A stretch of DNA of 64,000 bases from Hyphomicrobium sp. LHD-15 (GTDB lineage Bacteria; Pseudomonadota; Alphaproteobacteria; Rhizobiales; Hyphomicrobiaceae). Positions 12,253 through 38,690 of this stretch are shown piece after piece. The stretch is taken from NCBI RefSeq assembly GCF_031157355.1, contig NZ_JAVIFT010000009.1:1-64000 (forward strand). The letters are read 5' to 3'. Position 1 is the first letter of the stretch, and each line of letters opens with the position of its first letter. Made by a program: the position numbers and the translations under genes. The notes beneath the pieces are model-generated. The model worked only from the letters and a program-made list of their open reading frames with translations. It made no database searches and was not told the DNA's origin.

Positions 12253-13134
12253 ATGTCGTCAGTGGATCGAAGACCGCGCGCAACGGCAATTCAGGCATCC
12301 AAGCCGCCTTATCTCGGGTTTGGTCTCGGGCTGCGTCCTCAGCACTATCAGGATATTCTCGACGGCGATCCGAACGTCGACTGGTTCGAGGTGATCTCGG
12401 AGAATTACATGGTGCCGGGCGGGCAGCCGCTCAAAATGCTGGATCGCATTCGAGACCGGTATCCGATCGTCATGCACGGCGTTTCGCTTTCGATTGCGTC
12501 TACGGCGCCGATCAATGTGGATTATCTGCGCGACCTCAAGGCGCTGGCCGCGCGCAGCGAGCCGGTGTTCATCTCCGACCATCTGTGCTGGACCGGCGTG
12601 CACGGCGTCAATCTGCACGATCTCCTGCCTGTGCCCTACACGCGCGAGGCGCTCGATCACGTGGTAGCCCGCGTCCATCATGTTCAGGACTATCTGGGGC
12701 AAGCCATCGCGCTCGAAAACGTCTCGAGCTACGTGCAGTTTTCTCATTCCGAAATGAGCGAGTGGGAGTTCATCGCCGAGCTTACCAAGCGCACTGGCTG
12801 CTGGCTGGTGTTCGACGTCAACAACGTGTTCGTCTCCGCGTTCAACCACGAGTTCGACGCGCACGCGTTCATTGCCGGCATTCCGAAGGAACGGATCGTT
12901 CAGTTCCATCTCGCCGGGCACGAGCACAATATGAGCCACATCGTCGACACGCATGATGCGCTGATCTGCGACGAGGTGTGGGATCTCTACCGCTCGGCGC
13001 TTCGCCACTTCGGGCCGGTTTCTGCGATCATCGAGCGGGACGACCACATTCCGCCGCTTGATGAATTGGTGGCGGAACTCGATCAGGCGCGGTGCGTGGC
13101 GGCGGAAACGCTCGGGCAATCTTATGCCGCATGA
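12253..13134 (+). CDS. bufB: MNIO-family (DUF692) bufferin-modifying oxidase
   Basis: A 293-residue TIM-barrel protein of the multinuclear non-heme iron oxidase family. Family signatures are LGFGLGLRPQHYQDIL, VDWFEVISENYM, VMHGVSLSI, FISDHLCW, ALENVSSY, VFDVNNVFVSA, FHLAGHEH and IIERDDHIPPL; the His, Asp and Glu in these bind the irons. It would oxidise Cys residues of the BufA precursor. I use ATG 12253 because GAGGAG lies six bases upstream; an ATG at 12190 in frame is less likely. It overlaps bufC by 11 bases. Confidence 0.88.
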   Translation: MSSVDRRPRATAIQASKPPYLGFGLGLRPQHYQDILDGDPNVDWFEVISENYMVPGGQPLKMLDRIRDRYPIVMHGVSLSIASTAPINVDYLRDLKALAARSEPVFISDHLCWTGVHGVNLHDLLPVPYTREALDHVVARVHHVQDYLGQAIALENVSSYVQFSHSEMSEWEFIAELTKRTGCWLVFDVNNVFVSAFNHEFDAHAFIAGIPKERIVQFHLAGHEHNMSHIVDTHDALICDEVWDLYRSALRHFGPVSAIIERDDHIPPLDELVAELDQARCVAAETLGQSYAA

Positions 13135-27053: not shown

Positions 27054-28148
27054 CTATGACTGCACTGCCTTCATAGAAAGTGCGCGCTCAACTCGTGGTC
27101 GAAGCTCCTGTCCCATAAGGGTGAGGGACTTCTCGAGTAGCTCAAGTGGTAAAAATCCGAAAAACGCGCTGAGAGCATTCAGGTAAGCGACGCCAAGTTC
27201 GTCGTGAAGCTGGGCGATTTGCCGGGTGCAGGTTTCAGGGCTGCCGGCAATCACCATCTCCCGGTAGAAAACCTCAGGATCGAGCTCTCTCTCGGTAACC
27301 ACGCCCTTGCGGTTGAACAGCCCAAAGCCTTTCAAGCGTTCTGTCAGCTTCAGAACGGTGGGCCAGAGTTCCTTGCGCGCGGTCTCGTCAGTCTCGCTCA
27401 CATACACGAAACGTCCGAAGGGAACCCGCGACGGATCTCCGCCAGCGTCGGTAAAGGCGCGCATCAGGCGGCGCTGGTTGTCCATATTGGTGATGCCGTG
27501 GCACATCAGCGTATGGCCCTCGCGGCCGGCCCATGCAGCTATTTCATCGGAATGGGTTCCGATGAAAAATGGCGGATGTGGCCGTTGGATGGGCTTCGGC
27601 TCGATCGAGTAGGAGCTTGTCCCGAGAACGACCTTTTCGTCCTGCCAGGCACGCTTGAGAAATTCCAACGTCGAATGAAAGCGTTCGCCAACACTGTCTT
27701 GGGATACGCCGTAAGCTTCCAAGTATCTCGCGTTGCCGCCGCGCGAGACGCCGAAATCGATCCGTCCGTCCGATATTACGTCGAGCGTTGCGATCTCTTC
27801 GGCGATGCGAACGGGGTGATGCAGCGCGAGAAGCAAAACGGAAAAGCCGACCCGCAACTTCTGGGTTCGCGCAAGTATGGCCGAGGCGAGAATCAAGGGC
27901 GAATGGCAGCGGCGGCCTTCGACCTCGACAATGCTTCCTTGAAAGTGCTCTTCGTTCAACCATAGGCCATCGAAGCCCAAGGCTTCGGCCTTCATGGCAA
28001 GATCGAGCAGCTGCGAGGAGGAAACGGATTCCAATCCGCCGCCGCAGCCGGATAGGCCAATACGAAAAACCGGACGGGCGTTAGTCAGGGTTGTGGATGG
28101 TTGCTGCGGGTGGCTGCCAGTGGTGGCAGAGCTAAGACTTCTATTCAT
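27054..28148 (-). CDS. LLM-class flavin-dependent oxidoreductase
   Basis: A 364-residue bacterial-luciferase-like TIM barrel. Marks are LAMKAEALGFDGLWLNEEHFQGS, SPLILASAILARTQKLRVGFSVLLLALHHPVRIAEEIATLDVISDGRIDFGVSRGG and RPHPPFFIGTHSDEIAAWAG. The family uses FMNH2 from a partner reductase to oxidise small molecules. It lies 52 bases after a FecB-type binding-protein gene and is probably the third gene of the TonB-receptor operon, where it might open or modify an imported chelate or organosulfur ligand. That job is inference. ATG 28148 is used; a GTG at 28163 is possible. Confidence 0.85.
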   Translation of the reverse strand: MNRSLSSATTGSHPQQPSTTLTNARPVFRIGLSGCGGGLESVSSSQLLDLAMKAEALGFDGLWLNEEHFQGSIVEVEGRRCHSPLILASAILARTQKLRVGFSVLLLALHHPVRIAEEIATLDVISDGRIDFGVSRGGNARYLEAYGVSQDSVGERFHSTLEFLKRAWQDEKVVLGTSSYSIEPKPIQRPHPPFFIGTHSDEIAAWAGREGHTLMCHGITNMDNQRRLMRAFTDAGGDPSRVPFGRFVYVSETDETARKELWPTVLKLTERLKGFGLFNRKGVVTERELDPEVFYREMVIAGSPETCTRQIAQLHDELGVAYLNALSAFFGFLPLELLEKSLTLMGQELRPRVERALSMKAVQS

Positions 28149-28200
28149 TTCGCGCTTTTCCACTCTCAGGCCTTACGAGGCAATCTGCTGCGACGTGTCT

Positions 28201-29247
28201 TCATCTGTGCTGGCCCGCCCTGCCTTCCAGGATCTCGCGGATGTCCTCGTCACTGAGGGAAGTCCCGAGAAAATTTTCGTAGAACGAACGAACTTCGCTT
28301 TCGAGCGCGGTATCGCCAAAGGTATCGGGATGAATCAGTTTCGCCGCCCACAGAACCGTGAGGGGCTGCTCCACGGTTCTGTTCCCCCACACGTGCACAC
28401 CCATTGGAACAGCATAGACACGCCGATTTTTTATTGCCGAGACACTCGCCAGAACCGGGTTGGCGTAGGCGGCGGCGATTTCGCGTTCCGCACTGACGAA
28501 GATGACCTCAGGGTTCCAATCCAACACTTGCTCGATTGAAAAGTTGAAAGCTTCCGCCGTTCGGCCGTTGTCGGTCACGCTCCGGCCGCCTGCTTTTTCG
28601 ATCCACCATTCGGCGATGCGATGTGGTTGCGTCAGGCGATCAAGGCTCGCGTAGAGGACACGAGGCCGCTGCTCGAGGCTGAGCGCTTCAGTTCGTGCGC
28701 TCACTTTGGCGAGCGTGTCGTCAAAGTAGCGGCAATAGGCTTCGGCTGCGTCTTGCCGCTGATAGAGTTCGCCAAGCAAACGCATGACGTCCTTGACGTC
28801 GTCCGGTTGCCGCCAGGACAGGAATATTGCCGGAATACCCACCCGTTCCATGAGATCGACGGTTTTGCGATCCATGGTCAGTACGACGTCAGGGGAGGCT
28901 TGGACGACCCCTTCTACGATTGGTCCTTCGCTGCTTTGAACAACGGGGCGCTTCGCCAAATCCGGTGCAACGACGTACTGAAAACGCCATCGTGCTCCGC
29001 CGAGGTTTGGCGGGAGATTGTTGGCGATCGTCGCGGATTGCCCGAGCGCGAAGACAAAGCTGTTCAGGACCGGAACAGCACCGATGGTTGCAACCCGCGA
29101 AATCCTATCCGGTACCCTGACAGTGCGTCCGGCCATGTCGGTGACCGAACGCTCGGCGAGCACCGGCGATGCTGTCGACAGGTAAGCAGCTAGAATGACG
29201 AGAAAGAGCACCAACAGGTGGCTGAGAGCGGCGCTGCGACCGGACAT
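28201..29247 (-). CDS. FecB/BtuF-type substrate-binding protein
   Basis: A 348-residue secreted protein with a signal peptide (ALSHLLVLFLVILAAYLSTASPVLA). It has the class III (helix-hinge) binding-protein fold: RSVTDMAGRTVRVPDRISRVATIG, VVQASPDVVLTMD, AEWWIEKAGGRSV, FSIEQVLDWNPEVIFVSA and AIKNRRVYAVPMGVHVWGNRT. Such proteins deliver iron-siderophores, cobalamin or, in the MolA group, molybdate or tungstate to FecCD permeases. It follows the TonB-receptor gene by 88 bases with a hairpin between, and has no permease of its own nearby except the one at 33,882-34,943. Confidence 0.88.
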   Translation of the reverse strand: MSGRSAALSHLLVLFLVILAAYLSTASPVLAERSVTDMAGRTVRVPDRISRVATIGAVPVLNSFVFALGQSATIANNLPPNLGGARWRFQYVVAPDLAKRPVVQSSEGPIVEGVVQASPDVVLTMDRKTVDLMERVGIPAIFLSWRQPDDVKDVMRLLGELYQRQDAAEAYCRYFDDTLAKVSARTEALSLEQRPRVLYASLDRLTQPHRIAEWWIEKAGGRSVTDNGRTAEAFNFSIEQVLDWNPEVIFVSAEREIAAAYANPVLASVSAIKNRRVYAVPMGVHVWGNRTVEQPLTVLWAAKLIHPDTFGDTALESEVRSFYENFLGTSLSDEDIREILEGRAGQHR

Positions 29248-29299
29248 GAATTCGTTCTTCCGTGCTCTGGCCAGACGGGTTTCTCGACGGGAACTGAAG

Positions 29300-29325
29300 A
29301 GGGGCGCAACAATCGTCGCGCCCCT
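29300..29325 (-). other. Intercistronic hairpin after the TonB-receptor gene
   Basis: AGGGGCGC and GCGCCCCT form a perfect 8-bp stem with a 10-base loop, 10 bases past the receptor stop on the minus strand. No T run follows. It may protect the receptor mRNA end or lower expression of the downstream binding protein. Confidence 0.5.
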
Positions 29326-29335
29326 ACAACCCATT

Positions 29336-31747
29336 TCAGAATTTCACCGCGACGGTGCCCATGAGCGTGCGCGGTGCGCCGACATAGTAGTTGGCGCTCG
29401 AGCTCAAGTCGGTCTCGTTCGGAGAGATCTGGGAGACGTATTTGCGATCGAACAGGTTGATCACGCCAAACTTGAAGGTAGCCTCGTCAAGTCCGAACTT
29501 GTCCTTGATGTCGTATCCCAGCGTGAGGTCGACAACCGTGTATCCGGATACCTTCTGCACGTTAGCGGCATCCCCGTAACGCTCGCCGATGTAGCGGACA
29601 ACCGGCGTGACGGAGAAATCATTCCACGTATAGGTCATTCCGGCCTTGAGCATCGTTTGGGGTGTATTGGGGATCTGGTTTCCCTTGGTGGCCAGAAGAG
29701 AGCCGCCGGTCAGGGTTGGCGTGTCGGCGTCGAAGGTTTCTGATGCCAACGTGCCTGATCCGAAAGCGAACAGTGTCGAGTTGAACTGATAGGCGACCTG
29801 GAGCTCGACTCCGTATTCGGTGCTCGACCCCGTTCCTTCATAGTAGGCGATATTCGGACCGATGCTCGGGTCGATCACTTTCACCTGCTTGTTGGTGTGC
29901 TCGGCATAGAAGACCGACGGAATGACGGTCAGTCCATATCCTCTAAAGCTCACCTGGGCGGCAAATTGATCCGCTACTTCTGGCTTCACTCTATCGACGA
30001 CATCTTGCAGCGTGATGCCTTTGGCCTGGAACGCGGCCCGGTTCTGAATGTAGTTGCTGGCCTGCGGTCCCCAATCGGGGCGACCGAAGTTGCGACCATA
30101 GGAAACGTTGGCGCTCCAGCCGCCGCCGAAGTCGTTGGTGATGCCGATGTTCGGCAGATACTCGGTGTAATCCTGGGCGGCGACGGTCGTCCCCGGGAAC
30201 GGAGCTGGATTTGCGGCCAGGGCATCGTCCAGGCTTCCGTTCGGAATGCCGGCGCCGTTGAAATAGTGCATGTCGGGCGCACCGAGGTTCATATAGCGCA
30301 ATCCACCGGTAACAGTGATGGACCCGAGCTCTTGCGTCAGCTGGACATACGGGCTGTTGACGACGAAGTCGTCGATATCCGCGATGGTGTTCCATGATGC
30401 GAACGCGAGGTCGCCGGAGGCGGTGACGCTGAAGCGACGCTGGTCGGTCGGAGGCGGAGGAGGCGCCATGGACTGCCACCAGTATCCTACCACGACGTCG
30501 GTGCCGGTCCTGAAGTGCCCGTTGTATTCCAGAACACCGCCGACGTTGTCGCTCTGCTGACGCCAAATCTGAACGGTGCTACCGGCGGCATTGTATTGGG
30601 CGCCGTCGTTCTTCCAGTAGTAGGGCTTGAAGACGAGGTGTTGGCCTTCGGAAAACTGATAATCGATGTCGGCTTGAACGGCGAACGTCTCAGAATTCAC
30701 GCGATTGAATTTGTAGTAGTTGACATCGGCGGCCGGAATTCCCGTCAGCGTCTTGTTATAGTCGAAATCGTAGTTAGCTTTCAGATTCTGCGTTTGCGCA
30801 TAAGTAAGTGCGCGATAGGAATTTCCGTCGAACTTGTTGTAGACGGCATTCACGTCGACCTTGAGGGCGTTGCCGAACGACTGGCTCAAGCCCAATGCGG
30901 CGTTCTCGCGCGACGCGTCACCGACCCCGGTCCATTTGTCGGCGCTCGTGGTCGATCCCGAAATGAAGAGCTTGGTCCCGGTGCTGAGCAGACCGGTGTC
31001 GATGCGTGCGAAGGTCTTGTTGAAGTCCCAGGATCCAAAGCTCTGCTCGATGAAGTTGGACTGCTTGTTTTGCGGTCCAAGGATGCGCTGATCGATCACG
31101 CCGGAGGCATTTGAAATGCCCAAGCTCTTGTCGGCCGGAATTGGCCCCCGGTAGACATCGAGGCGGTAGATATTCTCCAGGTCATAGAGATCGCCTCCGC
31201 CAACGATGCCCGCTATGGGGAGACCGTTGATCGTGCGGGCGAGATGGAAGTCGGATTTGCCGGCGATGTTGATATTGCGCGTTCCGCTCAAGCCGTAAGG
31301 ATCGGGGCTTTCGACGAGGATTGATGGCAAGATGTCGGCGGCTTTGTAAAAGCTGGTTTGGGCGCCTCCGCCGAGCAACGACAGCCCCTCATGCGTGACG
31401 CTGCTGACGCGTCCCAAATCCGGATCTGCCACGATAATTCCGCCAACCGTTTGTCTGTTGACTGAAGGTGGATTCGCGTTGTCGCCGCCTTGCGCCGCGG
31501 CGTTGGCGCCTCCAATTGCCCCATCAGAGCTGGACGTGCCGGCACCGGTGCCTCCCGCCACATTCGCGTTTGGCTTCTTCTTCGCTGCCTTCTGCTTCGC
31601 GGGCGATTTTGGCTGTTTGGTCGTAACGACGTTGATTGGCGGCAGTGAATTGGTGGCTTCTGCCGATTTCTCTTCTTGCGCCAGCGCACCCATCGGCGCC
31701 AGCAGACAGATGCCCGTCAGGGCCGACACAACTTTTCTCATACGCAT
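29336..31747 (-). CDS. TonB-dependent outer-membrane receptor
   Basis: An 803-residue receptor that takes up scarce large ligands through the outer membrane with TonB energy. A signal peptide (to ALAQ, about 24) is followed by a low-complexity Ala/Gly/Lys linker (about 45-95), a plug domain (SFYKAADILPSILVESPDPYGLSGTRNINIAG, LENIYRLDVYRGPIPADKSLG), and a barrel ending NLFDRKYVSQISP with terminal aromatic VKF. The ligand is not known. FecA-like receptors carry iron chelates, but the linked binding protein, FecCD system, Mop protein and ModE-like sites suggest a molybdenum- or tungsten-containing ligand. GGGAG lies upstream of the two possible ATG codons. Confidence 0.93.
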   Translation of the reverse strand: MRMRKVVSALTGICLLAPMGALAQEEKSAEATNSLPPINVVTTKQPKSPAKQKAAKKKPNANVAGGTGAGTSSSDGAIGGANAAAQGGDNANPPSVNRQTVGGIIVADPDLGRVSSVTHEGLSLLGGGAQTSFYKAADILPSILVESPDPYGLSGTRNINIAGKSDFHLARTINGLPIAGIVGGGDLYDLENIYRLDVYRGPIPADKSLGISNASGVIDQRILGPQNKQSNFIEQSFGSWDFNKTFARIDTGLLSTGTKLFISGSTTSADKWTGVGDASRENAALGLSQSFGNALKVDVNAVYNKFDGNSYRALTYAQTQNLKANYDFDYNKTLTGIPAADVNYYKFNRVNSETFAVQADIDYQFSEGQHLVFKPYYWKNDGAQYNAAGSTVQIWRQQSDNVGGVLEYNGHFRTGTDVVVGYWWQSMAPPPPPTDQRRFSVTASGDLAFASWNTIADIDDFVVNSPYVQLTQELGSITVTGGLRYMNLGAPDMHYFNGAGIPNGSLDDALAANPAPFPGTTVAAQDYTEYLPNIGITNDFGGGWSANVSYGRNFGRPDWGPQASNYIQNRAAFQAKGITLQDVVDRVKPEVADQFAAQVSFRGYGLTVIPSVFYAEHTNKQVKVIDPSIGPNIAYYEGTGSSTEYGVELQVAYQFNSTLFAFGSGTLASETFDADTPTLTGGSLLATKGNQIPNTPQTMLKAGMTYTWNDFSVTPVVRYIGERYGDAANVQKVSGYTVVDLTLGYDIKDKFGLDEATFKFGVINLFDRKYVSQISPNETDLSSSANYYVGAPRTLMGTVAVKF

Positions 31748-32076
31748 GACTCCCTAGAAACGTGAAAGGCGGCCTTGGCGGTACGCGCCGCGTTTTCGGC
31801 CTTGCTGGTGGATGGTGAAAATTCTGATGAAACGTCGGCCGTTCATCCGCCCTATTGGCAGACGCGGTCGGACGGATGATTGCCGGTGGGAAATCGCGGC
31901 GCGATCTCGGGTGAAGATGGTGCGTTGGCTGCAACCGCGTTCGAAATACTCCGGGTCGCGGCGGCCGTCTTTGGCGGCGCCAACTTGAGCCTCAGAGACC
32001 GGTTCGAATGGAAGAACCCGGAGAACAGCGGTTGTCGTGCCGGCGCCTTTGCGAAGACGGTACAACCACATCGCAT

Positions 32077-32105
32077 TTTGCGATCAGTCGCTTTGCGATC
32101 AGTCG
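32077..32105. repeat. Tandem repeat TTTGCGATCAGTCG x2
   Basis: Two identical 14-base copies (32077-32090 and 32092-32105) separated by one base, period 15. It lies in the leader/promoter region of the TonB-receptor gene. It could be a pair of binding sites on the same face of the helix, or a simple duplication. Confidence 0.6.
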
Positions 32106-32221
32106 TTCGAATTTTAAACGCAGCTGGAAATATGCAAACAGCACCTTCTGCTGCGGTTGATGCAGACCGCAACATTACTCCCCCCGAACGCACTTGCCAT
32201 ACGACCCCCGTATGGTTTGCA

Positions 32222-32245
32222 CGCTATATCTGCATGACTATAGCG
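32222..32245. promoter_or_regulatory. ModE/Mo-box-like inverted repeat A
   Basis: CGCTATAT-N8-CTATAGCG, with the inner seven bases CGCTATA/TATAGCG perfectly symmetric; total 24 bp in an 8-8-8 layout. This matches the form of ModE operators (CGnTATAT, spacer, complementary half). It lies 475 bases upstream of the TonB-receptor start and 153 bases beyond the trmO stop, in an otherwise gene-free stretch. Confidence 0.6.
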
Positions 32246-32397
32246 CGTGTTCAATAGAATAATTCGAATGAAACCATTGGCGGTGCCAATCGCAAAGCGG
32301 TGCTAAAGCATTTGTCGGCAGACGATCCGGCAACAGATAGTTTCGCCGCGGCTAGCGGATCGAGTATTCGACTCGCGTCGTGTGAAGCGTTTCGTCG

Positions 32398-32889
32398 TCA
32401 GCCCGTCTCGAAGTCGCCAGGCTGCGGTGGTGCCAACGGCGTGAAGGCACAACGATCGGGTTTTATGTCTACGAGTGGCGTTCCGTCCAAGCAATCCAAG
32501 CCACGGACAAGCAGCGTTGCCTCCTCGATGCCGACGAGGGCGACGATTGAGGTTCCGATTGGATTGGGCCGAACCGGCGAGCGCAGAGAAAATGTGCCAC
32601 GTGCGACGCCGTCGTGAGCGGGGCATTGGAGGACCAAGTCACGCCGCGACTGGTGCAGCCAATAGAGGACTTCCAACCTCTCGTACTGATCAATTCCGTC
32701 CAGGGCTCGCTGCCATGGCTCGAAGATTTTTATTTTACAGATTGGGCCATCAATCCGTCCCTGCCGCGGCGTGTCGAGACGGGACGTCCATGGCGTGTGG
32801 ATCGAGCCTATGAAAACAAGGCTCGCATCCGTTGCGGGCGGGGGCGCGATTGCCAACTCACCCGCCCTGATTTCATTCTTACGCACCAT
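32398..32889 (-). CDS. trmO: TrmO (TsaA family) tRNA t6A37 N6-methyltransferase
   Basis: A 163-residue protein of the YaeB/TsaA family. TrmO adds an N6-methyl group to t6A37 of tRNA-Thr using SAM. Marks are [61 protein letters not shown] and [15 protein letters not shown]. Last gene of the binding-protein/permease/ATPase/Mop operon, starting right after the Mop stop; TsaA-like genes do recur beside metal and Mo transport genes, so it may have a second role here. A TTG start at 32904 is possible. Confidence 0.85.
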
Positions 32890-32890
32890 G

Positions 32891-33097
32891 TCAATCGACG
32901 GCAATCATGACGTCCGAGGCTTTGATAACCGCATACGCAGTCTTTCCCACCTCAAGCTTGAGTTCGTCGGTCGCGGCGTTGGTAATGGACGCCGTGACAA
33001 CCGATCCGCCGATGTCGATTTTGACGTGAGCTGTCGTGGCCCCCTTCGTCACCTCGACGACTTTTCCCTTTATGATGTTGCGGGCGCTGAGCTTCAT
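32891..33097 (-). CDS. Molbindin (single Mop/TOBE domain)
   Basis: A 68-residue protein, [20 protein letters not shown] onward, that is one full Mop domain: [28 protein letters not shown] and [22 protein letters not shown]. Molbindins form hexamers that bind molybdate or tungstate in the cytoplasm as a store or buffer. The start overlaps the ATPase stop by four bases (ATGA). Its place in the same operon as the FecCD transporter is the main sequence evidence that the cargo is molybdenum or tungsten. Confidence 0.92.
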
Positions 33098-33891
33098 TTT
33101 GATTTCTCCTTCACCTTCAGCGAGGGGATGCAGATGTGTCGCTTTTCCTGTTCCATATAGGTGACACTTACGTCGACACCATAGAGATCGTGCAGCGATC
33201 TCGAAGTCACAATTTCTTCCGGCGTGCCGAATGCGATGATACTCCCCGCCTTCATCAGCGCAACCCGGTCAGCGCAGGCGAGAGCGTGGCTGGGATTGTG
33301 GGTTGAGAGCACGATTGCCAAGCCCGAAGCGGACAGGGATTGGATGGTTTCCAGAACGCGCACTTCGTTGCCGAAATCGAGCGCGGAGGTGGGTTCGTCC
33401 ATGACCAAGAGCTGTGGCCCCTGGGCGAGAGCGCGTGCAATCAACGCCATCTGACGTTCGCCTCCGGAAATCTCCGAGAAATGGCGGCGAGCAAGATGGG
33501 ATATTCCGAGTGCATCGAGCGCCGCATTGGCCGCGGCAAGATCGTTGGTTGATGGTGTCCTGAATAGGTCGATCTGGCTCGCACGCCCCATTAACACGAT
33601 ATCGATAACCCGGAACGCGAACGTCGGCGCCTGAGCCTGAGGCACATAGCCGACGCGACGGGCGAACGCCGCGCGGGAATACGATGCGTAGGTGCTCCCG
33701 CCGAGCTCGAGACGCCCTCTCAGCGGAGGAAGAAGACCGAGCAGGGTTTTGAACAGGGTGGTCTTTCCGCAGCCGTTCGGACCGAGCAAGCACACGACTT
33801 CTCCGGCCGACACCGAAAGGCCGATGTCGGTCGCAATGGACGTGTTGCCGTAGCCGACGTCAAGGCCGACCGCTTCGAGTATCACCGCCAT
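33094..33891 (-). CDS. FecE/BtuD-type ABC transporter ATPase
   Basis: A 265-residue ATPase with Walker A GPNGCGKTT, the Q-loop YVPQAQAP, signature SGGERQM, Walker B LLVMDEPTSALD and switch LSTHNP. It is of the iron-siderophore/B12/MolC type that works with FecCD permeases. I start at ATG 33891 (MAVILEAVGLDVGYG), which overlaps the permease end by 10 bases. Confidence 0.93.
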   Translation of the reverse strand: MAVILEAVGLDVGYGNTSIATDIGLSVSAGEVVCLLGPNGCGKTTLFKTLLGLLPPLRGRLELGGSTYASYSRAAFARRVGYVPQAQAPTFAFRVIDIVLMGRASQIDLFRTPSTNDLAAANAALDALGISHLARRHFSEISGGERQMALIARALAQGPQLLVMDEPTSALDFGNEVRVLETIQSLSASGLAIVLSTHNPSHALACADRVALMKAGSIIAFGTPEEIVTSRSLHDLYGVDVSVTYMEQEKRHICIPSLKVKEKSK

Positions 33892-34943
33892 GAGAAACGC
33901 GCCGTCATGAGCAGCCACAGAAAGAAGGGGGCTCCAAGGGCCGCCGTGAGGATGCCAAGCGGGACCTCAATGTCGGCAATGGATCGTGCGAGAGTGTCCA
34001 CTGCCACCAAATACCCCCCGCCGAGAAGCAACGCAGTCGGCAGCAGTCGCGAAAAATCCGGGCCGACGAGCATGCGAGCGACGTGAGGCACGAGCAACCC
34101 GATCCAGCCAATAATTCCTGAGATCGAGACGGCCGCGGCCGTCATCAAGGTGGCGGCGGCAATAAAGACAAGCCGCAATTTTGCGGTTTCGACGCCGAGC
34201 GCGCGTGCTTCCTCATCGCCGAGGGTCATCAGGTTCATTCTCCAGCGCAGCAGCACCAAGGGGATCAGCCCAATTGCGGTCGCCGGGACGATCGAGAGCA
34301 TGTCGCTGCGGGTCACGCTGGCCAACGAGCCGAGCAGCCAGAAGGTGATCGCAGGCAGTTGATTGTAGGGGTCGGCGAGCACCTTGAGCAGCGAAATGCA
34401 GGCGCCAAGCAATGCTGCAATCGCGACGCCGGCGAGCACGAGAACAAGGGTGGGATCGCGGTCGCGTGCCGCGGAACCAATCCCATAGACGACCGAGACC
34501 GCGATCACGCCGCCGGCAAAGGCAAGGCCCTGGATGATCAAAATCGAGCTCGAGAGAAAGATGCCGAGCACCGCGCCGAGGCTGGCGCCGGCAGACACAC
34601 CGAGAATGTCGGGCGATACGAGCGGATTGCGGAACAACCCTTGATAAACCGCACCGGCAGCAGCAAGCGCGGCACCCACGAGAAAGCCAGTGATGACGCG
34701 CGGAAGGCGAATGTTCCAGATCACCGTCTCGGCGGTCGAGCCGGCGCCGCTATCGCTCCCGCTTATGCCCGCAGCCAAGATCCGAATGATGTCTTCGGGA
34801 GAGACCCTGTACTTGCCGGTGCCCAAAGCCCAAAGCAGAACGGCAGCCAGCAGAACAGCAGCGAGGATAGGCCAATAGCGGAGAAGCGCGTTTCCCGATC
34901 GAGGCAGATCCCCATGTTGCGTGGCAGGTGGCCCAGCTTTCAT
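33882..34943 (-). CDS. FecCD/BtuC-type ABC transporter permease
   Basis: A 353-residue inner-membrane permease with about ten helices. Family marks are WNIRLPRVITGFLVGAALAAAGAVYQGLFRNPLVSPDILGVSAGASLGAV, SISGIIGWIGLLVPHVARMLVGPD and LPTALLLGGGYLVAVDTLARSIADIEVPLGILTAALGAPFFLWLL. It forms the pore for the FecB-type binding protein; MolB of Haemophilus influenzae, a molybdate/tungstate permease, belongs to this family. The start ATGA overlaps the stop of the binding-protein gene. Confidence 0.93.
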   Translation of the reverse strand: MKAGPPATQHGDLPRSGNALLRYWPILAAVLLAAVLLWALGTGKYRVSPEDIIRILAAGISGSDSGAGSTAETVIWNIRLPRVITGFLVGAALAAAGAVYQGLFRNPLVSPDILGVSAGASLGAVLGIFLSSSILIIQGLAFAGGVIAVSVVYGIGSAARDRDPTLVLVLAGVAIAALLGACISLLKVLADPYNQLPAITFWLLGSLASVTRSDMLSIVPATAIGLIPLVLLRWRMNLMTLGDEEARALGVETAKLRLVFIAAATLMTAAAVSISGIIGWIGLLVPHVARMLVGPDFSRLLPTALLLGGGYLVAVDTLARSIADIEVPLGILTAALGAPFFLWLLMTARFSWR

Positions 34944-35989
34944 TTGTCGTCTCGCAGGTCAGAAAGAAGGGTGGCCACCTGATCGTCGGTTAAATTGACC
35001 TGGTAGAAGAGACGATAAAAATCACGGGTCTCCTGCTTGAGATCGATATCTGTCCTGCCGGGGTAGAGAACGGTTGCGAGCCACGACACGCCGATGACGC
35101 GATTTATGCCCGGTGGAGCATCGAACCATCCGAACGGCAGAACAGGCGCGCGGAAAATGCGACCGGCCTTGACCGCGGAAATCCCGCTCCAAAGCGGGTC
35201 GGTTTTCACATTGCTGAAAAAGGCCGTATCGAGTGTGAGGATGACATCGGGATTCCACGACAGCACTTGCTCCACCGAGACGTTGGCAAGCCCGCCTGCG
35301 CCAGCCGATTGCGCCACGTTCTTTGCACCGACGGCCTCCAAGACTTCCATGTTGATTGAGCCCGCGAGGCCAGTCTCCAATCCATTGGGTCCGCGACCGT
35401 AGTAGACCTTTGGTTTCTGCTCGTCTGGAATGGTCGCCATGAAGGAGGCTGTTCGAGCGAGGGTGCCATCTGCGTAGCGCGCCAATTTCTCGGCCCGTTC
35501 GCCCACGTCCAATAACTCGCCGGCCCGTCTCAGCGTTTCTGAGTTCTGCTTGAAACGCCCGTTGAGCAGGACGTAGGGGATACCCGTCTGTTGCTGAACG
35601 CGATCGGCAAGGGAGGCGTAGCTCTCGCTAACGGTGCCGACATCGACAATGACGTCGGGCTTTGCGGAAAGAATGGCCTCGACATTGGCAGTCCCGCCGC
35701 GGCCCGTCACTCGGCCATGTGCCGGCAGGTCACGGTACGGCTCGGCAATGAATGCTTTCTGATCCTCGCTCGGGGCGCTTACCCATCCCACCATTTTGTC
35801 GGGAGCAAGAGCATAGAGAAGGACAGACGCGGGCGGGCCTGCTGCCATTACCCGGTTTATCGTGTGAGGAAGGACGACCGTCCGCCCGGCGTCATCGACG
35901 AAGGATCTCTGCGCGGCTGCCGGGGTTGCGAACAGCGCAACAAGCAACAACGAAATTGCGGCATAGGCGACGCGCTGGCAGGCTGCCAT
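34940..35989 (-). CDS. FecB/MolA-type substrate-binding protein
   Basis: A 349-residue secreted protein: signal peptide to TPAAAQ (about 27), then the helix-hinge binding fold (RSFVDDAGRTVVLPHTINRVMAAGPPASVLLYALAPDKMVGW, AILSAKPDVIVDVG, YYGRGPNGLETG, VSVEQVLSWNPDVILTLD, GRIFRAPVLPFGWFDAPPGINRV). First gene of the overlapping operon with permease, ATPase, Mop and TrmO. MolA proteins of this fold bind molybdate or tungstate. The final FYRLFYQVNLTDDQV segment is shared with the second binding protein (YENFLGTSLSDED), suggesting the two are related and may share the permease. Confidence 0.9.
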   Translation of the reverse strand: MAACQRVAYAAISLLLVALFATPAAAQRSFVDDAGRTVVLPHTINRVMAAGPPASVLLYALAPDKMVGWVSAPSEDQKAFIAEPYRDLPAHGRVTGRGGTANVEAILSAKPDVIVDVGTVSESYASLADRVQQQTGIPYVLLNGRFKQNSETLRRAGELLDVGERAEKLARYADGTLARTASFMATIPDEQKPKVYYGRGPNGLETGLAGSINMEVLEAVGAKNVAQSAGAGGLANVSVEQVLSWNPDVILTLDTAFFSNVKTDPLWSGISAVKAGRIFRAPVLPFGWFDAPPGINRVIGVSWLATVLYPGRTDIDLKQETRDFYRLFYQVNLTDDQVATLLSDLRDDK

Positions 35990-36021
35990 GGGAAAGTCCT
36001 TCTCGACTGCGGCTCGGCGAT

Positions 36022-36045
36022 TGTTATATTGAAATGAATACGGCG
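36022..36045. promoter_or_regulatory. Degenerate ModE/Mo-box-like site C
   Basis: TGTTATAT-N8-ATACGGCG keeps the 8-8-8 layout of sites A and B. The left half is one base from CGTTATAT; the right half is two bases from ATATAGCG. It lies 32 bases before the binding-protein start on the minus strand and about 100 bases before the divergent alcohol dehydrogenase. It is weaker than the other two sites. Confidence 0.35.
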
Positions 36046-36147
36046 GCCAAGAGAGACGTCAAAGGCGACCGCCTGCCGCGCTTATTTGTGGTGCGCCAAG
36101 CTTGCTTTTGGTGCGCGTCTTTCGCACAGGAACGGGAGCTGATTTGA

Positions 36148-37152
36148 ATGATCAAGGCCTGGGCTACAAGTGCCGCCGACAAGCCGCTAGAGCCGTTCGA
36201 GTATGATCCGGGTCCGCTTGAGCCAGATGATGTCGAGATCGCCGTAGAAACGTGCGGGATCTGTCATTCCGATGTCTCCATGATGCACAACGAATGGGGA
36301 ATGACGGCGTACCCGCTGGTTCCAGGGCACGAGGTCATCGGGCGGGTTACTGCGCTCGGTTCGAATGCGAAAGGGCTCAAGATCGGGCAGCGCGTCGGAG
36401 TGGGCTGGGCGGCTTCGAGCTGCATGCACTGTCAACCGTGCCTCAACGGCGATCAAAACCTCTGTGCAACCCATACCGGCACGATTGTGGGGCGACATGG
36501 CGGGTTTGCGGAAACGGTGCGGGCTCAGTGGCCTTGGGCGATTCCAATTCCCGATGGATTTGATGCGCAGGAGGCTGGGCCACTCCTATGCGGAGGCGTC
36601 ACCGTCTTCACGCCATTTCGTGCTTTCGGCGTCAAGCCTACCGACCGTGTCGGCGTGGTCGGAATCGGCGGGCTCGGCCATATGGCGCTTAAGTTTGCAC
36701 ATGCCTGGGGATGCGAGGTTACCGCCTTTACATCAACGGATGCCAAGGCGGACGAAGCCCGGTCGTTCGGCGCCGACAACGTCGTCAACACCCGCAACGA
36801 TTCTGATCTGAAACGCATTGCCGGCACGCTCGATCTGCTGTTGGTGACGGTCAATGTTCCGCTCAATTGGCCGGCGATGCTTGCGACGTTGAGGCCGAAG
36901 GGGCGTTTGCATGTTGTCGGCGCTGTTCTCGAGCCAATTCCGGTCGCTGCATTTCCGATCATCACCGGGCAGAACAGCATTTCTGGATCGCCGAACGGCG
37001 CGCCGGTCACGTCACAGCTGATGCTGGAGTTCTGCGCGCGTCACAATATCGTTCCGCAAACCGAGCATTTTCCCATCGCGAACGTCAATGATGCGATCCA
37101 GCATCTGCTCGACGGCAAGGCGCGCTATCGGATTGTTCTCGACGTGACCTAG
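36148..37152 (+). CDS. Zinc-dependent alcohol dehydrogenase (YahK/CAD type)
   Basis: A 334-residue MDR enzyme that reduces aldehydes or oxidises primary alcohols with NADP(H). Catalytic-zinc motifs are CGICHSDVSMMHNEWG and PGHEVIGRV; the structural zinc site is CMHCQPCLNGDQNLC. The cofactor fold is RVGVVGIGGLGHMALKFAHAWG. Length is normal. It diverges from the molybdate-type transport operon, 158 bases away, and may be a metabolic passenger or share its regulation. Confidence 0.92.
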   Translation: MIKAWATSAADKPLEPFEYDPGPLEPDDVEIAVETCGICHSDVSMMHNEWGMTAYPLVPGHEVIGRVTALGSNAKGLKIGQRVGVGWAASSCMHCQPCLNGDQNLCATHTGTIVGRHGGFAETVRAQWPWAIPIPDGFDAQEAGPLLCGGVTVFTPFRAFGVKPTDRVGVVGIGGLGHMALKFAHAWGCEVTAFTSTDAKADEARSFGADNVVNTRNDSDLKRIAGTLDLLLVTVNVPLNWPAMLATLRPKGRLHVVGAVLEPIPVAAFPIITGQNSISGSPNGAPVTSQLMLEFCARHNIVPQTEHFPIANVNDAIQHLLDGKARYRIVLDVT

Positions 37153-37395
37153 GTGCGCACACTCGCTCTTGCTTTTTGCGGGCGCCTTGGCAGGCGAGCC
37201 CCGGTTAAGCTGCGGGGCGCATGTGCTGTTCCCATATCGCCGACGACGGGTCGTGTGCTGCCCAGATGCACTGCTCAGGTTGTCGCAAAGACCAGTAGTT
37301 GCGCGGCTGAAACCGGCTTAACTGAGACTTGCCGCATCGGACATCGCGGCGTGTCGAGCCCCCATCACAGCTCGACACCAAGCTTGGAGATGGGC

Positions 37396-37926
37396 CTAGT
37401 CTGCGGGAATGATGGCGCCCAAGGGGCCGACAAATTCGAGATAACTTTTGGTGAAGGGCGGCGCGACCGACGTTAGTACGGGTTTATCGTGCTCGGCAGC
37501 ACACACGAACGCGGCGATGAGACCTCCGCCCTCGGCCTCGAGTTTTCCGAATTTACTGAGGATGACCAGATCGGCGCCGGAGATGTGATCGAGAATTGCG
37601 GCGCACGATTCAGCCACCCCCGCAGGGTCGAGACAGCAGGCCGTCGAATACGGGCCAAGATCCTGATAGAGGCGGTGGTGAGTGCCTGACACGAGATTCC
37701 GTAGAACAGAACCCCCGCAGGCCTTCGGCAATCCCTCGGTATGTTCTTCGACGAGGCCGACGACGCGGGCGCCGTTCAGGCGCCAGGAATTAGCAAGAAA
37801 CGTTAGATGGTCCTGAATTTTCTCGCTGGAATCTCCTTGGATGCCCGCGATACGCGTTTCGGACGTCCACTTCACGCTTGCGTCCCCTCCGGTCACCCCG
37901 ACATCCCTCCGTCTCATGCTACTCAT
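37396..37926 (-). CDS. DUF2478 family protein (nucleotide-binding, Mo-linked)
   Basis: A product of up to 176 residues with a P-loop-like fold layout: RIAGIQGDSSEKIQDHLTFLANSWRLNGARVVGLVEE, then LSKFGKLEAEGGGLIAAFVCAAEHDKPVLTSVAPPFTKSYLEFVGPLG. The DLVILSKFGK and E-GGGL parts are characteristic of DUF2478. Genes of this family commonly sit near molybdate transport and Mo-cofactor genes, supporting the Mo reading of the locus. Start is uncertain: several ATG and GTG codons lie in the first 18 codons. It diverges from the 38,029 gene across Mo-box-like site B. The 243 bases downstream (37153-37395) show nothing. Confidence 0.75.
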   Translation of the reverse strand: MSSMRRRDVGVTGGDASVKWTSETRIAGIQGDSSEKIQDHLTFLANSWRLNGARVVGLVEEHTEGLPKACGGSVLRNLVSGTHHRLYQDLGPYSTACCLDPAGVAESCAAILDHISGADLVILSKFGKLEAEGGGLIAAFVCAAEHDKPVLTSVAPPFTKSYLEFVGPLGAIIPAD

Positions 37927-37989
37927 GTCAATTTATCACCTCCGAGCTCTCGGCGCACCCCGTGAGACCTTTCGCATTTGCATCGGCTA

Positions 37990-38013
37990 CGTTATATTTT
38001 TATAGATATAGCG
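37990..38013. promoter_or_regulatory. ModE/Mo-box-like inverted repeat B
   Basis: CGTTATAT-N8-ATATAGCG: 24 bp in the same 8-8-8 layout as site A, with one mismatch between halves. It lies in the divergent gap between the DUF2478 gene (64 bases away) and the 38,029 gene (16 bases away), in a short AT-rich patch. It is the best match in the window to the ModE operator form. Confidence 0.65.
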
Positions 38014-38028
38014 CGGCGAGGATACGAG

Positions 38029-38409
38029 ATGGACATCGAAGTGCAAGCCTTAACGACATACAGCGTCGCCGATGATGGGCAAAGCGTGGCGCTCGGCTTG
38101 AAGGATACGGCGGGAAACAACGCCACGCTCCGAATGAAAATCTGTGAACTCGGCAATCTGGTCATGACGCTTCCAAGCGTCATCGAAACGGCGCTGCGAC
38201 GCCGCTATCGCGACGTTTCTCTGCGATACACCTATCCGCTTGGCGCATGGCGGGTCGAAGCGTCGTCGGATCCTGGACATGTCATCGTTACGCTGGGTAC
38301 CGAAGATGGCTTTGGAGTGAGTTTCTCAGTTCCACGGGCGCGTGCCGGTGAGCTCGGGGCAGCGATTTCGTCGTCCGTTCGCCAGAAGACGCACGTTCTC
38401 GCTCATTGA
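38029..38409 (+). CDS. Hypothetical protein next to Mo-box-like site B
   Basis: A 126-residue protein, MDIEVQALTTYSVADDGQSV onward, with alternating beta-strand character and no signal peptide or membrane helix: VALGLKDTAGNNATLRMKICELGNLVMTLPSVIETALRRRY, VIVTLGTEDGFGVSFSVPRARAGELGAAISSS. GAGGA lies upstream of ATG 38029. I do not recognise a family. Its start follows site B so closely that a bound dimer would block transcription or early elongation. Confidence 0.6.
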   Translation: MDIEVQALTTYSVADDGQSVALGLKDTAGNNATLRMKICELGNLVMTLPSVIETALRRRYRDVSLRYTYPLGAWRVEASSDPGHVIVTLGTEDGFGVSFSVPRARAGELGAAISSSVRQKTHVLAH

Positions 38410-38423
38410 TCCGGGGATGGTTT

Positions 38424-38690
38424 GTGCAGACCGGGGATGAGGATTGTCGTGCTCTCTGGGAGTACGTCGTGACAGCCAATGAAGATGATTGGACGATCTC
38501 GCTCATGGGCAATGTCGTCGACGCGTATTACTCGGAACGCGAGGCGTTGCGTTTTGCGATCGAAGCCGCGCGCGATGCTGGTGTTCGTGGTCATCGCGCC
38601 GAGGTTCTGGTTCGTGACCGGGGAAATTGTCTACGCAATGTCTGGATCTTCGGTATCGACCCATTCCCGCCACCCGAATTCACAGATTGA
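38424..38690 (+). CDS. Small hypothetical protein (DUF2188-like)
   Basis: An 88-residue protein if started at GTG 38424 (GGGGATGG just upstream); a TTG at 38406 overlapping the previous stop would give 94. Content such as DDWTISLMGNVVDAYYSEREALRFAIEAARDAGVRGHRAEVLVRD resembles short DUF2188-type proteins with a strand-helix-strand unit. Probably cotranscribed with the 38,029 gene. Its 3' end abuts the decayed TonB-receptor relic. Confidence 0.5.
   Translation: MQTGDEDCRALWEYVVTANEDDWTISLMGNVVDAYYSEREALRFAIEAARDAGVRGHRAEVLVRDRGNCLRNVWIFGIDPFPPPEFTD

Follow-up and report, generated by a model that had tools for sequence, protein, structure and literature searches.

Molybdate is generally assumed to diffuse through the porins of the outer membrane, and the molybdophores of Azotobacter are azotochelin and protochelin. 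Here we describe a locus of Hyphomicrobium sp. LHD-15, at positions 27,054–38,409 of a 64,000-nucleotide stretch (the window) of contig C9, one of the 10 contigs of a 4.29-Mb genome, that is probably a ModE-controlled, TonB-dependent importer of molybdenum (Mo) or tungsten (W). Among the closest described systems, MolBC-A of Haemophilus influenzae (HI1470-1472) likewise joins a class III binding protein to a FecCD-type permease and an ATPase for molybdate and tungstate, and its MolBC is reportedly a low-affinity importer of molybdate that works via MolA (PMC4031551; papers cited by such numbers are drawn on in excerpt). The excerpts on MolBC-A mention no TonB receptor. ModABC under ModE, as in Escherichia coli and, with MopA/MopB, in Rhodobacter, has the same ModE box and the same Mo-dependent control as proposed here, MopA/MopB controlling ModABC and MorABC through Mo-boxes (PMC6925177), but it belongs to another transporter family, and the ModE-type protein of LHD-15 differs in having no Mop domain. 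TonB-dependent metallophore uptake (siderophores; LutH and methylolanthanin in methylotrophs), described also for lanthanides (PMC11317620), shares with the locus a TonB receptor, a binding protein and an ABC transporter for a scarce metal, whereas metal and regulator differ and no metallophore genes were found here in a search for one family. Chelated Mo is likewise a nutrient in the case of the Azotobacter molybdophores (PMC3627308), and in Pseudomonas aeruginosa a ModA/IcmP outer-membrane route has been described (PMC11734730). Among the papers listed by a search of the open literature, none, by title and start of abstract, describes a TonB receptor under ModE control or a ModE-box receptor for Azotobacter molybdophores; regulon databases and subscription papers lay outside that search, and an earlier computational prediction is possible.

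Genes were named by Pfam and NCBIfam profile searches, which recovered every member of the gene set proposed in a sequence-only reading of this DNA. On the minus strand these run in the order DUF2478 (37,396–37,926; PF10649), FecB2-FecCD-ATPase-Mop-TrmO and, after a 650-bp gap, TBDR1-FecB1-LLM. The central group comprises a periplasmic class III binding protein (FecB2, 34,940–35,989; PF01497), a FecCD-type permease (33,882–34,943; PF01032), an ABC ATPase of the FecE/MolC type (33,094–33,918; PF00005), a 68-residue molbindin (Mop, 32,891–33,097; TIGR00638, 80 bits against a cut-off of 55) consisting of a single Mop domain of about 70 residues, and TrmO (32,398–32,904; TIGR00104 over cut-off; likely start ATG at 32,889), all four junctions overlapping or abutting between 35,989 and 32,398. 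The receptor group comprises a predicted TonB-dependent outer-membrane receptor (TBDR1, 29,336–31,747), for which the Pfam search gave the barrel PF00593 over cut-off and no plug-domain match, a second class III binding protein (FecB1, 28,201–29,334; PF01497), whose gene follows TBDR1 in relatives too, and an LLM-class flavin-dependent oxidoreductase (LLM, 27,054–28,163; PF00296, E = 2.6e-48; start codon provisional), whose nearest solved relatives are luciferase-like monooxygenases. Compared with solved chains, the permease is nearest to HI1471, the MolB of MolBC (2nq2; 218.8 bits, E = 1.2e-63; runner-up 181.6 bits, E = 2.6e-52). MolA is among the nearest binding proteins, yet FecB2 is closer to 4pag (232 bits) than to MolA (112 bits), with 4ovk at 127 bits. 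The locus is best read as a TonB importer that would be joined to, and feed, a MolBC-like ABC transporter.

The control proposed for the locus rests on ModE boxes. The ModE consensus is ATCGCTATATA-N6-TATATAACGAT (methods of PMC2700814), and its 24-nt core, CGYTATA-N10-TATARCG, was used to scan the whole genome with the reversed pattern as control. Exact matches occur at two places genome-wide, both at this locus: box 1 (CGCTATATCTGCATGACTATAGCG, 32,222–32,245) and box 2 (CGTTATATTTTTATAGATATAGCG, 37,990–38,013), the latter between DUF2478 and an open reading frame (ORF) on the plus strand. With up to one mismatch allowed, five places were found, as against one for the reversed pattern. Sites were also scored over 14 fixed positions (CGNTATAT-N8-ATATANCG) and compared with those of 1000 dinucleotide-shuffled versions of each 1-kb upstream region. 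Scores of 13 for TBDR1, 14 for DUF2478 and 13 for a second receptor, TBDR2, were reached by no shuffle, while the score of 11 upstream of FecB2, due to a weaker site at 36,022–36,045, 32 bp 5' of the gene, was reached by 10 shuffles, and that of 11 upstream of modA by 12. The 5-kb surroundings of modA in E. coli K-12, scanned as a positive control, gave a single site of at least 11; it lay immediately 5' of modA and scored 13/14, the level of the sites in the window. The Mo-box-like sites noticed at first sight exceed chance, and candidate ModE boxes stand upstream of the genes of the locus. As for a regulator, the genome holds one clear match to TIGR00637, a helix-turn-helix protein of ModE type (C8:37300; 83.7 bits, E = 2.8e-23; the next match has 19 bits), encoded convergently with modA; modBC lies elsewhere in the genome.

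The remaining one-mismatch sites lie outside the window. One (C3:137864) is immediately 5' of TBDR2, after which comes a second molbindin gene (mop2), and another (C3:112012) is 5' of a LysR-type gene. TBDR2 is one of 32 TonB barrels in the genome; TBDR1, also a TonB barrel, gave no significant blastp match to it, and the idea of a close copy is unsupported. The TBDR2 region forms a second Mo-linked locus (L009:5865-9015, on C3) of box, TBDR2, molbindin and a 175-residue protein without Pfam family, homologues of which come after TBDR2 in many relatives. A further one-mismatch site (C1:22228, L019:8229), which fits the looser motif fully, lies 5' of a gene for a haem-containing dehydratase.

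The same links recur in other lineages. TBDR1 is rare: it was found in 2 of 297 genomes of the order, in 5 of 103 family genomes, at six loci in a contig scan (two peptide patterns, 127 stretches tested) and in four plasmid records, two of them from the same strain. Twelve TBDR1 loci were examined (the window, L017, L052-L057, L119 and L121-L123), leaving out L117 and L118, which repeat L052 and L053, and the second OB3b plasmid record; L054 ends right after the receptor, and the gene start in L119 is estimated. A site of 11–14/14 within 1 kb 5' of TBDR1, with a score that no more than 13 of 1000 shuffles attained, is present at seven of the twelve (window, L017, L052, L053, L055, L057 and L119), and boxes in this position span Hyphomicrobium, Burkholderiales and Aquificaceae. 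In the Aquificaceae metagenome-assembled genome (MAG; L057), ModE, two Mop genes and ModABC precede the receptor, and in Burkholderiales bacterium 70-64 (L055) receptor and FecB1 genes form a tandem array that carries three sites of 13. Four TBDR1 genes, whole or in part, are interspersed with FecB1 genes in this array, ahead of one FecCD-ATPase pair. In a Hyphomicrobium MAG (L052:4455-7115), what appears to be a molybdopterin nitrate reductase gene, named by eye from its start, lies upstream of the TBDR1 operon.

TBDR2 is more frequent, being present in 16 of the 297 order genomes. Sites were tested at 16 TBDR2 loci (the own copy, 14 of the 15 other order genomes, and L056), and at seven of these the score was reached by no more than 2 of 1000 shuffles. 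ModE-type genes flank the receptor in L038, L039 and L043, although only the L039 protein passes the cut-off. L039 repeats most of the gene set on a single strand, in the order DUF2478-FecB2-FecCD-ATPase-Mop-TrmO-box-TBDR2-ModE, and FecB2-FecCD-ATPase is joined with TBDR2 in L114, L126 and L128 as well. DUF2478 occurs near TBDR2 or FecB2 in L039, L056, L124 and L128, and TrmO homologues occur at L038, L039, L099, L104, L114 and L126. Other Alphaproteobacteria likewise carry TBDR2 with ModE, molbindin, DUF2478 or FecB2-FecCD-ATPase. Shinella PSBB067 has box-FecB2-FecCD-ATPase-box-TBDR2-DUF2478 with both boxes 14/14; in Paracoccus aminovorans FecB2-FecCD-ATPase and TrmO diverge from TBDR2, with 11/14 sites (3/1000 shuffles); and in Methylorubrum extorquens CM4 TBDR2 has a 13/14 site (0/1000) and DUF2478 a 12/14 site upstream, accompanied by a ModE-type gene (94 bits against a cut-off of 98.5), a 13/14 site 5' of a DUF2325 gene, and a molybdotransferase gene. 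Among plasmid records, 23 matched TBDR2 and nine, the preceding three included, were viewed; another of the nine, from P. aeruginosa, carries a TBDR2-like receptor (32% identity) with a 12/14 site (1/1000) beside a molybdopterin oxidoreductase, moaA and nar genes. FecB2 itself occurs in 20 of 385 class genomes, that of LHD-15 among them, with two of the 20 scoring far lower (214 bits as against at least 362). In the fetched stretches, a gene for Mop, a ModA-type, a TupB-like or a ModE-type protein accompanies 11 of the 18 other high-scoring FecB2 loci (L098-L100, L102-L105, L107, L110, L112 and L114), the TupB-like permeases scoring below the TupB cut-off.

The organization does not stand alone, and variants of it exist elsewhere, including in E. 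coli. The ninth plasmid match (L129) is an E. coli operon of FecB-FecCD-ATPase-methyltransferase-ModD-receptor, with ModD matching TIGR01334 at 504 bits. Its proteins share 40% (FecB), 51% (FecCD) and 42% (ATPase) identity with those of the window, and its receptor 31% with TBDR2. A 14/14 box lies 24 bp 5' of FecB in L129 (0/1000 shuffles) and, in an identical position, in L133, a chromosomal copy, these being the two copies scanned. Of 5,426 complete E. coli genomes, 2,102 match this operon, 2,094 of them over at least 80% of its length, and 2,097 of its 2,105 places are chromosomal; treA and ymgE flank it in L133, where K-12 MG1655 has ycgY alone. Public records label the binding protein of this operon as iron transport.

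Computation thus established the gene identities, the boxes and the repeated association, in independent lineages, with genes for ModE, Mop, ModA or ModD, and the assignment to Mo or W and to ModE-type control, as first proposed, holds well on the strength of the boxes, the molbindin, the ModE-type helix-turn-helix protein and the same links elsewhere. The family-level annotation (FecB, FecCD, TonB-siderophor) and the automatic labels of public records would suit an ordinary iron-siderophore importer with a molbindin gene nearby by chance; however, such a chance arrangement would leave the recurrent boxes and the ModE, Mop, ModA-type or ModD partners across independent lineages unaccounted for, and in a small control no site above 8/14 was present in 1000 bp upstream of a further FecCD gene of the genome or in 569 bp upstream of a further FecB gene. 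We regard this explanation as highly improbable.

Several observations weigh against a ModE-controlled, TonB-dependent Mo importer. Box 1 lies as far as 474 bp 5' of the TBDR1 start, and the ModE-type protein of LHD-15 falls below the TIGR00637 cut-off of 98.5 bits. Of the 16 TBDR2 loci, two are without a site and seven have weak ones (7–46 of 1000 shuffles); among the nine TBDR2 loci viewed on plasmids, those of Azospirillum TSH58, Sphingomonas and Bartonella have no near site, both Azospirillum records having a 12/14 site about 2.8 kb off, and in L132 the closest site of at least 11 is about 2.8 kb from TBDR2. As to TBDR1, the 14/14 site in L054 is 1.2 kb ahead of the matched segment, the copies in L056 have no box of their own, 12/14 sites there lying 5' of the TBDR2 that heads the cluster, and three plasmid loci from Methylosinus and Methylocystis show no site above 9/14 within 1 kb. 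Two of these three Methylocystaceae loci carry a full FecB-FecCD-ATPase-LLM set, in Methylocystis beside a gene for a pyrroloquinoline quinone (PQQ)-dependent dehydrogenase. Finally, 7 of the 18 FecB2 loci have no Mo/W protein marker (two are short contigs and three belong to one genus), and only one of the 18, L114, has a clear TBDR2 near FecB2 (with two sites of 13), L107 having a 64-bit receptor fragment.

Observations of this kind bear on the possibility of two neighboring systems, in which FecB2-FecCD-ATPase-Mop-TrmO would take molybdate or tungstate that entered through porins while TBDR1-FecB1-LLM would import another compound. TBDR1-FecB1-LLM indeed has its own FecCD-ATPase in G177, L052, L053 and L119, the Methylocystaceae sets are without boxes, and FecB2 loci of the class mostly lack an adjacent receptor. 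Such a division is nevertheless difficult to reconcile with TBDR1 having its own site, both in the window and in Hyphomicrobium-type relatives, and with the single cluster of L056, where both receptor kinds and both transporters occur together. Moreover, among the seven FecCD matches of the genome there is no orthologue of a second FecCD of the FecB1 kind, the best being the permease of the window itself (42%). Since no second permease of this kind was found, FecB1 and FecB2, which are 28% identical, may share one FecCD. We therefore consider two separate systems unlikely.

A further point against the Mo importer concerns the nearest solved relative of TBDR1, which by sequence profile and by fold is PqqU/YncD. 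The AlphaFold model of TBDR1 (predicted local distance difference test, pLDDT, 76.8) matches the solved TonB receptors PqqU, FecA and FhuA, and a receptor for PQQ, or for a lanthanide ligand, would serve methylotrophs, which need PQQ for alcohol dehydrogenases; the dehydrogenase gene near the Methylocystis set is in keeping with this. The match to PqqU is distant, with 16% identity in the structural alignment, and a PQQ receptor would leave both the boxes and the ModE-Mop-ModABC neighborhood of L057 unexplained, so that this identity is, in our judgement, very unlikely.

More evenly balanced is the question of what the TonB-dependent Mo importer would carry. Because the LLM gene is kept beside the system and a TonB receptor is used at all, it is plausible that the substrate is a chelate, which the LLM would help to unload. 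The LLM adjoins receptor or transporter genes at 7 of the 12 TBDR1 loci in two orientations (the neighbors in L054 lie beyond its cut end), and its copies beside TBDR1 systems in Hyphomicrobium-type genomes, Methylosinus and Methylocystis are 70–79% identical to it, those of the latter two being on the opposite strand at 70–73% identity. In Bartonella, a supposed LLM orthologue beside TBDR2 was ruled out, matching at 33% over 96 residues. A molybdophore as putative substrate and a ligand-processing role for the LLM, as suggested by the sequence-only reading, would thus fit the anatomy.

The competing explanation, that the substrate is bare trace molybdate or tungstate and that the LLM and TrmO have unrelated roles, has an appreciable though less than even probability. 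Free molybdate also fits the kinship with MolA, the binding protein of the related MolBC-A, whose ligands are molybdate and tungstate (PMC4031551). The retrieved stretches of L055, L056, L057 and E. coli L129 yielded no LLM. The single non-ribosomal peptide synthetase (NRPS) condensation domain of the genome, the one metallophore family searched (genes for NRPS-independent siderophores and catechols lay outside the search), falls in a cluster that by eye resembles the exopolysaccharide type and has no box; a self-made NRPS molybdophore is accordingly unsupported. For a bare oxyanion, on the other hand, the recurrence of the LLM would remain without explanation, and TonB receptors otherwise serve large or scarce solutes. 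The fold neighbors of FecB2 (model pLDDT 89.5) include YiuA, solved with ferric chelates, which speaks for a chelate, as well as MolA; with both so near, the fold comparison is uninformative for separating binders of oxyanions from binders of chelates.

In the mechanism that we propose for a ModE-controlled importer, low cytoplasmic Mo would cause the ModE-type repressor to leave the boxes, whereupon the TBDR1-FecB1-LLM and FecB2-FecCD-ATPase-Mop-TrmO units would be expressed. A Mo species, probably a chelate, would pass the outer membrane via TBDR1 and be handed over by FecB1 and/or FecB2 to the MolBC-like FecCD and ATPase. Molbindin would bind the freed oxyanion in the cytoplasm, and oxidation of the ligand by the LLM may release the metal.

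Other features of the locus were noted in passing. Control by a riboswitch was rejected, as no cobalamin or molybdenum cofactor element reached the Rfam threshold in the window, L017, L052 or L053, where the gathering scores returned one tRNA each for the window, L017 and L053. A leader of 330–475 bp separates box and TBDR1 in the window (31,748–32,221), L052, L053, L017 and L119. It contains a possible hairpin right after the box, whose stem letters vary between species while the loop stays G-rich, and then a second G-run and a short frame (53–58 codons in four, 107 in the window) with an alike start in several; the hairpin is present in the minimum-energy fold of three of the five (window, L053 and L017). 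TrmO is the sole match of its kind in the genome, so that a specialized extra paralogue is unsupported, and it sits inside the Mo operon beside Mop, as it does in L038, L039, L104 and L114. The gene for an NADPH-dependent aldehyde reductase, Ahr (36,148–37,152, plus strand; NF047908 over cut-off), between FecB2 and DUF2478, is probably not part of the import system. Two small unnamed ORFs span 38,029–38,690. The first (38,029–38,409, plus strand) has no Pfam match, and its family adjoins ModE boxes; the L104 homologue (12,485–12,871; 65-bit profile match) lies between ModA and a ModE-type gene.

A wider reading, which we put forward tentatively as possible rather than probable, is that the locus belongs to a widespread undescribed route, present in about two-fifths of complete E. 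coli genomes, by which organically chelated Mo would be taken up by TonB receptors, belonging to two or more types that look unrelated, and would enter the cytoplasm intact. A varying "ligand slot" would then modify the freed ligand, occupied by the LLM oxidase in Hyphomicrobiales, by the methyltransferase and the phosphoribosyltransferase-like ModD in E. coli, and perhaps by TrmO. The idea is testable in tractable strains, because the E. coli operon occurs in 2,102 of 5,426 genomes and M. extorquens CM4 has a box-led TBDR2. If a ModE-controlled TonB importer of this kind is real, Mo would join the metals that are pumped through the outer membrane, a common context would emerge for ModD, DUF2478 and the Mop-linked TrmO, and the system could help to account for the competition for scarce Mo among soil and methylotrophic bacteria.

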